Source: Clostridia bacterium
Lineage (GTDB): Bacteria; Bacillota; Clostridia; Christensenellales; Aristaeellaceae
Direction of reading: 5' to 3'
Assembly (NCBI GenBank): GCA_017447185.1
Contig: JAFSOC010000003.1
Coordinates: forward strand, 1 to 64,000
DNA length: 64,000 nucleotides
The notes beneath the pieces are model-generated. The model saw only the letters and a list, made by a program, of their open reading frames with translations, did no database searches and had not been told where the DNA came from. Below are positions 54,723 to 56,120 of this stretch, piece by piece; the first letter of the stretch is position 1, and every line of letters starts with the position of its first letter. Both the position numbers and the translations under genes were made by a program.

Positions 54723-56120
54723 ATGAAAAAACTGTTTTGCCTGATCCTGGTCCTGTGCCTGTCTTTGGCCGCCGTATCCGCCCTGGCGGAAACAGGGATC
54801 ACCATTGACAATATCCGGGACTATGTCGTTGGCCTGGATACGCCGGTTAAACTGTCGGACGGAACTTCCCGCCCCCTGATCAATTTTGATAACGCAGCCA
54901 CCACGCCGGCACTCAAGCCCGTTCTGGACGAGGTCAATGAAAAGCTCCTGATGTACGGTTCCATCGGCCGCGGATTTTCCATCAAATCCGATTATTCCTC
55001 CGAACTTTATTCAAGCACACGGAAAAAAGTGCTCAAATTCGTCAATGCGAACAGCGAAAAGTATACCATGTTCTATGTGAACAATACGACAGACGGCCTT
55101 AATAAGCTGGCTTCCGCGCTGATCACCAGCAAGGATGATGTCGTGCTCTGCACCCGCATGGAGCATCACGCTAACGACCTCAGCTGGCGGGAGCGCTGCA
55201 AGGTCATCTATGCGGAAGTCGACAAGCAGGGCCGCATCATTTATGAAGACATCGAACGCATGCTGAAGGAAAACAAAGTGAAATACGTTGCGGTTACAGC
55301 CGCCTCGAACGTCACCGGTTATGTAACGGATGTCCACCGTATTGCGAAGCTGGCGCATCAGTACGGAGCGCAGATTGTTGTGGACGGAGCGCAGATTGTT
55401 GCCCACCGTGCGTTTTCCATGAAGGGTGAAACCCCTGAGGAAGATATTGATTTCTTCGTTTTTTCCGCCCATAAGATGTACTCTCCCTTCGGCGGCGGCG
55501 CAGTTGTCGGAATTGAAGAAGTCCTGAACGATCATATGCCCACTTTCTACGGCGGCGGTATGGTGGAACTTGTCAGCGACAAGGAAGTATCCTGGAAGTC
55601 CGCTCCCGAGCGTTATGAGGCCGGCTCTCCGAATTATCCCGGTGTTGTCGGTCTTGGAAAAGCAATCGAGATCCTGCAGGAAGTCGGTTTTGATGCAATC
55701 CAGGCGCATGAGCAGAAGCTGATCCACCGGCTGATCGACGGACTGAAGAAGCTGCCGAACGTTGTTCTTTACGGCGACTGCGAAAATGTTGATGACCGGG
55801 TCGGCGTTGTTTCCTTCAACTTCTCCGATATCAATTCCATGATGCTGGCAACCCGCCTCGCACAGGTTGGCGCAGCCACCCGCCGCGGTGCATTCTGCGC
55901 ACATCCGTATGTCTGGCGCCTGATGGGTATTGCGGACGAGGATGTTATCACATTTGAAGGCTGCATTGACGCAAAAACGCCCGGTATGATCCGTGCCAGT
56001 TTCGGTATTTACAATACTGAAGCGGAAGTGGACGAATTCCTGGAGATGCTTCAGAAAGCTATGGAACACGTGAAAAACAATCTTACGGACAAGGATGAAG
56101 ATATTCCGCAGGAATACTGA
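54723..56120 (+). CDS. Class V aminotransferase (desulfurase-like) with Sec signal
   Basis: A 465-residue PLP-dependent enzyme of the class V aminotransferase/cysteine desulfurase family. The fold is intact: NFDNAATTP start, MEHHAND (PLP-stacking His), VVDGAQ (Asp), SAHKMYSP (Schiff-base Lys) and a SufS-like Cys in RRGAFCAHPY. What is odd is the first 23 residues, a textbook Sec signal (MKKLFCLILVLCLSLAAVSALAET) cut after ALA. ATG 54723 follows an AGAGAGGA tract, and no ATG or GTG occurs before the conserved fold, so a cytosolic start is not visible. An outer location for a PLP enzyme is unexpected. Function may be cysteine or selenocysteine desulfuration; substrate unknown. Confidence 0.85.
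   Translation: MKKLFCLILVLCLSLAAVSALAETGITIDNIRDYVVGLDTPVKLSDGTSRPLINFDNAATTPALKPVLDEVNEKLLMYGSIGRGFSIKSDYSSELYSSTRKKVLKFVNANSEKYTMFYVNNTTDGLNKLASALITSKDDVVLCTRMEHHANDLSWRERCKVIYAEVDKQGRIIYEDIERMLKENKVKYVAVTAASNVTGYVTDVHRIAKLAHQYGAQIVVDGAQIVAHRAFSMKGETPEEDIDFFVFSAHKMYSPFGGGAVVGIEEVLNDHMPTFYGGGMVELVSDKEVSWKSAPERYEAGSPNYPGVVGLGKAIEILQEVGFDAIQAHEQKLIHRLIDGLKKLPNVVLYGDCENVDDRVGVVSFNFSDINSMMLATRLAQVGAATRRGAFCAHPYVWRLMGIADEDVITFEGCIDAKTPGMIRASFGIYNTEAEVDEFLEMLQKAMEHVKNNLTDKDEDIPQEY

Follow-up and report, generated by a model that had tools for sequence, protein, structure and literature searches.

A SufS-like class V PLP enzyme of Clostridia, predicted to be exported and a candidate for releasing cysteine sulfur outside the membrane

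The gene at 54723..56120 of a Clostridia bacterium contig (the window, that is the whole stretch of DNA analysed here, being 64,000 nucleotides long) encodes a class V PLP enzyme of SufS type behind a Sec-type leader. Export of this protein and of the clade to which it belongs is strongly supported by the make-up and conservation of the leaders, and the protein is probably secreted. The explanation I favour, with a confidence slightly above even, is that of a cysteine desulfurase-type enzyme that would turn cysteine outside the cell into alanine and sulfide or persulfide. The protein would cross the membrane by Sec, unfolded, then fold and take up PLP outside; L-cysteine (or a close analogue) would be converted to L-alanine, the sulfur being held as a persulfide on Cys392 until small thiols release it as sulfide or soluble persulfide, or until an exported acceptor takes it over. 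Cys159 and Cys414 would join in a stabilising disulfide, and the outcome could be a supply of sulfide and alanine, or redox tuning at the cell surface. The features concerned are the following.

54602..54631, + strand: terminator-like hairpin with a T run, 3' of the upstream gene taken to be carB (8-pair stem, 6 G-C)
54636..54664, + strand: promoter-like TTGACA-17-CATAAT (11/12 matches, a consensus match only)
54706..54712, + strand: ribosome-binding-like AGAGAGG, ten bases upstream of the ATG (read from the sequence)
54723..56120, + strand: gene of the predicted exported SufS-like class V PLP enzyme (ORF, 465 aa from ATG)
54723..54788, + strand: Sec-type signal, residues 1-22, likely cut between ALA and ET (by composition)
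54879..56039, + strand: class V PLP domain, Aminotran_5 (domain match)
55164..55169, + strand: His148-His149 of EHHAND (alignment)
55197..55199, + strand: Cys159, invariant across the exported clade (alignment)
55473..55475, + strand: Lys251, the PLP lysine of SAHKMYSP (alignment)
55896..55898, + strand: Cys392 of GAFCAHPY, at the catalytic cysteine position (B. subtilis Cys361, E. coli Cys364; alignment)
55962..55964, + strand: Cys414, invariant across the exported clade, in a loop absent from SufS (alignment)
55992..55994, + strand: Arg424, at the position of the substrate-carboxylate arginine (alignment)
56126..56166, strand not assigned: terminator hairpin between the enzyme gene and the convergent gene, presumably for DAHP synthase (fold energy)

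The upstream neighbour in the list of open reading frames spans 51404-54595 (+) and is what I take to be carB; the convergent downstream gene is presumably that of a DAHP synthase. A preliminary description of this DNA had credited the enzyme gene with a promoter and a terminator of its own. The terminator half of that claim stands, the 3' hairpin reaching -18.8 kcal/mol (z -4.7, 0/200 shuffles equally good); the promoter-like site, with its 11/12 consensus, is suggestive only, for five such sites are found in the surrounding 4 kb versus a shuffle mean of 2.6 (sd 1.5). A scan for consensus terminators gave 6 hits, within chance expectation (shuffle mean 4.4).

In the window protein the leader, MKKLFCLILVLCLSLAAVSALA followed by ET, has a top 11-residue Kyte-Doolittle mean of 3.15 preceded by a charge of +2, a composition that agrees with the signal ending ALA-ET described previously. 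Likewise, no start lies between signal and fold: ATG, GTG and TTG are absent in frame over residues 23-30 and from residue 31 to FDNAA. As the window gene offers no alternative start past its leader, mis-annotation of the start is rejected.

Close relatives were gathered by four overlapping sample searches, namely of a genome-contig collection (4 loci, of which L007 and L008 are close), of 300 genomes of the family (12 with a match, own genome included), of 396 genomes of the order (3 with a match, own genome included) and, by profile, of 341 genomes of the class (5 including the own genome, with L093 close and three at ~47%). The resulting close clade counts 17 members including the window protein, with which the other 16 share 69-77% identity over the enzyme domain. 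A search of the phylum matched 110 of 398 genomes at E <= 1e-50, from which the best 29 others were used, plus 7 as SufS outgroup. All 17 clade members have an export leader by composition: the 11-residue means are 2.57-3.45 in 16 of them and 2.45 in L093. By the same measure a leader is found in none of the 32 more distant relatives, with means of 0.29-2.07 in the 29 relatives taken from the phylum search and 0.27-1.00 in the three sister proteins L094-L096. The homologue search proposed earlier thus recovered signal and Lys/Cys motifs together in 17/17 clade members, and no clade member lacks the leader and starts directly with the fold, which was the result named beforehand as speaking against export.

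The leaders are of several kinds, comprising plain signals, lipoprotein-like signals, a signal with a dockerin and a signal with an AhpC/TSA-like domain. A lipobox-like Cys occurs in L008, L017, L020-L022 and L052 (L020-L022 also having a downstream AXA site) and was recognised by eye in L053 (Cys25; the pattern flagged another Cys) and L093. The enzyme of L007 (4593-6326) bears a signal and a type I dockerin (36.8 bits, cut-off 22.9), and its genome gives 6 cohesin matches at or above the cut-off (24-35 bits), a control search having matched 1/14 genomes. In L019 (673-2820) a signal and an AhpC/TSA-like stretch precede the enzyme (27.8 bits, cut-off 26), and an Ig-like match falls short of its cut-off; the AhpC/TSA-like stretch has a single Cys, hence no CxxC. 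Over four close pairs, dN/dS is 0.05-0.21 by two methods.

An ordinary cytosolic enzyme, the leader being non-working or translation starting internally, is a very improbable alternative. It could draw on the leaderless state of the 29 relatives at ~37-44% identity and of the three sister proteins, and on the in-frame ATG, GTG or TTG found between leader and fold in 15/17 clade members; however, no codon of this sort occurs in the window gene or in L016, ribosome-like sites precede the leader ATG in most of the 16 members listed (by eye), and an export leader persists in 17/17 despite its varying kind.

As for the enzyme itself, the class V fold described earlier with its Lys, His and Cys motifs is confirmed: Aminotran_5 (PF00266) covers residues 53-439 (E 2.5e-89, 300 bits, gathering score 21.5), with K251 in SAHKMYSP, H148 in EHHAND and C392 in GAFCAHPY. 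The top NCBIfam model is SufS (TIGR01979) at 314.7 bits, below its cut-off of 475.1, which L007, L093 and two signal-less relatives also do not reach. Among solved structures, SufS proteins are the nearest relatives, led by B. subtilis SufS 5xt5. The group II cysteine desulfurase set (PLP Lys, His, substrate Arg and catalytic Cys) is in place in 17/17 clade members, in which K251, D221, Q224, H148, R83, C392 and R424 are all kept. I take His148 and Arg424 to correspond to His123 and Arg379 of E. coli SufS; R83 was matched to E. coli R56 through the RG motif. According to a passage of PMC11408855, R56 contacts the sulfur of the PLP-cysteine intermediate. Desulfurase chemistry of the window enzyme is inferred from these residues. 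As to the proposal that it frees sulfide or persulfide outside the membrane, the export half is strongly supported by the sequence, while the chemistry is read from residues only.

SufS-like enzymes accept some of the compounds selenocysteine, cystine and cysteine sulfinate, and PDB chains in this group carry both names, selenocysteine lyase and cysteine desulfurase. An exported desulfurase-type enzyme acting on a cysteine relative such as these in place of cysteine would fit both facts; it is nevertheless unlikely, given that the sequence singles out none of them and that the selenocysteine lyase model SclA gives 142 bits versus a cut-off of 525.

If the favoured desulfurase-type explanation is right, the next issue is where the sulfur goes. 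A section of PMC10216065 presents His354 of Mtb SufS as the zinc ligand that opens SufU, essential for transfer, and gives a Tyr at this position in E. coli SufS. The B. subtilis SufU-contact residues His340, His342, Asp343 and His359 are kept in none of the 17 exported members, where the HPHD stretch becomes N, then S or T, then varied residues; they are mostly absent from the 29 signal-less relatives too. In the exact zinc-ligand column His occurs in 0/29 signal-less relatives; one place before it, His is present in 26/29 of them and in 2/3 sister proteins and is lost in 17/17 exported ones. Cys390, a second cysteine beside the catalytic one, is found in 28/29 signal-less relatives, is Ala in 17/17 exported members and is absent from the three sister proteins, and the position of E. 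coli His55 (HRG) holds Gly in all 20 exported and sister proteins and His in 29/29 signal-less ones. Several of the changes being shared with signal-less or sister proteins, they are, on this alignment, partly untied from export.

Cys159 and Cys414 are invariant (17/17) and, with C392, are the sole invariant cysteines of the aligned domain (16 rows). Among the 40 other rows (3 sister, 29 signal-less and 8 SufS) both extra cysteines appear only in L094, one of them displaced by three positions; L048 has a single one, close to 414. The simplest reading is a pair that would form a stabilising disulfide. Release of the persulfide by small thiols is not assured, for the persulfide of wild-type E. 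coli SufS is out of reach of external reductants and the enzyme depends on SufE, a change of the latch Asn opening the persulfide site (as set out in part of PMC10011822), and this Asn, matched by motif, is kept as N127 in 17/17 exported members. A beta-latch opened as in the E. coli N99 variants is not supported, given the same conservation.

DsrE-type proteins carry sulfur on cysteine. Near the signal-less enzymes a DsrE2-like gene was found in 11 of the 20 contexts fetched (L068, L069, L073, L074, L075, L079 and L081-L085), always on the same strand (11/11) and within 500 bases in 7; the five of the 11 that were checked are PF13686. A signal-less SufS-like enzyme and DsrE2 are thus a candidate carrier pair, and the recurrence of the gene in 11/20 contexts, combined with sulfur carriage by DsrE proteins, suggests that the signal-less parent family probably passes its sulfur to a carrier. 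No DsrE2 was seen near the exported enzymes (0/17 contexts, some of them short contig ends), near the sister enzymes (0/3 contexts) or in the window's own genome, which is 89% complete. Beside signal-less enzymes, a manganese-catalase-like gene lies at or near the enzyme in 3/20 contexts (L069 7175-7879, L073 5200-5754, L075 6759-7340; Pfam checked for L069 only).

Besides the exported enzyme, the own genome has three class V genes of full length, whose Cys motif marks them as IscS/NifS-like, and gives two further matches that are weak and partial. One of the three lies in the window, at 9656-10738 (-). One IscS-like gene, on contig 29, adjoins a NifU_N gene and probably serves the Fe-S assembly of this genome; with that pair present, the exported enzyme is unlikely to be the housekeeping SufS. 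Because the SufU-contact positions are unconserved, DsrE2 is met in 0/17 contexts and not in the own genome, and an IscS-like gene stands beside NifU_N, the exported enzyme would appear to work without the usual acceptor.

An initial conclusion that the exported enzymes have no shared neighbour was overturned when all 17 contexts were clustered. In four of them, from two lineages, a protein of ~270 aa with a leader adjoins the enzyme on the same strand, 115-605 bases off:

L054, 10280-11080, same strand as the enzyme: ~270-aa protein with leader, downstream
L062, 10847-11662, same strand: ~270-aa protein with leader, upstream
L063, 7428-8228, same strand: ~270-aa protein with leader, upstream
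L064, 7952-8761, same strand: ~270-aa protein with leader, upstream

L062-L064 are three very similar genomes; the L054 enzyme is the nearest to the window's (77%), and the L054 copy of the neighbour is 42-44% identical to the other three copies. No Pfam match over a cut-off was obtained for the three of four copies tested. The own genome encodes a 30% relative on another contig (L133, E 1.7e-14). The exported enzyme may therefore have a partner of its own in this putatively exported protein. The other genes listed as shared among the 17 contexts, clusters confined to L062-L064 apart, are over 800 bases away from the enzyme in one or more contexts or lie within very similar genomes. In the single case of L008, two genes upstream of the enzyme are presumably O-acetylhomoserine sulfhydrylase-like and cysteine synthase-like. 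The shared neighbour, along with the residue changes that are not export-specific, weakens the carrier-free argument a little; the evidence for export and for the catalytic set is unaffected.

The same ~270-aa protein could be a substrate or partner in a different reaction, in which an exported class V PLP enzyme modifies a secreted peptide, a siderophore or a cell-wall amino compound, Cys392 having another role. R388, W398 and Y298, which are clade-specific and invariant, could likewise signal another substrate, and PvdN, as reported in a portion of PMC7497351, shows that class V PLP enzymes can act outside the cytosol. I regard such a reaction as rather unlikely: the complete cysteine desulfurase set is kept, Cys included, PvdN gives only 26 bits versus a cut-off of 650, and besides the ~270-aa protein the shared genes are distant somewhere or belong to very similar genomes. 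The wall or host amines suggested earlier as targets gained no evidence from the analysis, so that they are possible targets at most.

In a tree of 58 rows (LG+G4) the exported set forms one clade (100/100), sister to the signal-less L094-L096, the two together again receiving 100/100, and both nest inside the signal-less family, apart from SufS. Export gained on a cytosolic stock would be the simplest reading. The gene is patchy: within the family, 3 of 120 good genomes carry it. Among the 24 other genomes of the genus that have the DAHP synthase gene, four (L109, L111, L112 and L113) show carB directly adjoining it with no enzyme between, and in two of these four (G230 and G293) the enzyme gene is located elsewhere. 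Since the site occurs without the enzyme in these relatives, two of which have the gene elsewhere, the window gene looks like a single-gene insertion. In L110 neither carB nor the enzyme is found in the 1.5 kb beside the DAHP synthase gene, and in 19/24 carB, the enzyme and an antiporter-like gene are all unseen in 4 kb at this locus. L008, from Erysipelotrichaceae, groups with L052 of the window's own order (96/80), which fits a transfer between lineages.

Phage and plasmid cargo were considered and set aside: 36 viral-contig stretches matched a pattern and none was confirmed, and the plasmid collection gave four records, at 35-39% identity (E <= 1e-60). Two of the plasmid-collection records, NZ_CP030101.1 (2.9 Mb) and NZ_LN868939.1 (2.7 Mb), are of chromosome-like size.

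As known so far, cysteine desulfurases donate sulfur in the cytosol or in organelles. A broader proposal, tentative and with a confidence somewhat below even, is that scattered Clostridia and Erysipelotrichaceae have moved the extraction of cysteine sulfur to the outside, by enzymes that would be secreted, lipid-anchored or, in one case, dockerin-bearing, stabilised by a disulfide and independent of the usual carriers, with a small exported partner in some lineages; sulfide and alanine would then have a nutrient, redox or community function. If so, cysteine at the surface of some bacteria would be a source of sulfide or persulfide, which matters for how sulfide forms and sulfur is shared where they live, and for the cofactor supply of a Sec-exported PLP enzyme, and the dockerin would add a non-carbohydrate activity to the cohesin-dockerin system.

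PvdN is Tat-exported. Like the window enzyme as read here, it is a class V PLP enzyme outside the cytosol, from which it differs in its reaction and in sequence; a score of 26.2 bits against the PvdN model NF051467 (cut-off 650) is too distant for PvdN identity. The earlier statement that the family is normally cytosolic needs a limit all the same, PvdN being periplasmic and acting on pyoverdine according to part of PMC7497351, if only remotely similar to the present protein. No description of an exported cysteine desulfurase was found in the open-licence literature, which lacks most subscription papers.

With SufS (B. subtilis 5xt5, TIGR01979) the window enzyme shares the fold, the PLP lysine, the His, the Arg pair, the catalytic Cys and a whole-domain alignment; unlike SufS, it has a signal peptide and a longer loop after the catalytic Cys, lacks the SufU-contact residues and attains 315 of the 475 bits of the model cut-off. 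By that curated cut-off, the clade predicted to be exported consists of SufS-like enzymes and not of SufS proper. The nearest large family is the signal-less, often DsrE2-linked one of the same phylum (L023-L051, ~37-44% identical), with the same extra loop and a SufS-type active site; it differs from the exported clade in having no leader, in the HRG histidine (29/29) and the second Cys (28/29), and in the DsrE2-like gene (11/20). The sister group L094-L096 (~47% identical) resembles the exported clade in that IGRG replaces IHRG and Cys390 is missing, whereas it has no leader, 2/3 are without both extra cysteines and 2/3 keep the docking-helix His. The exported clade and its signal-less sister group offer a ready comparison for the action of such an enzyme without a known carrier.
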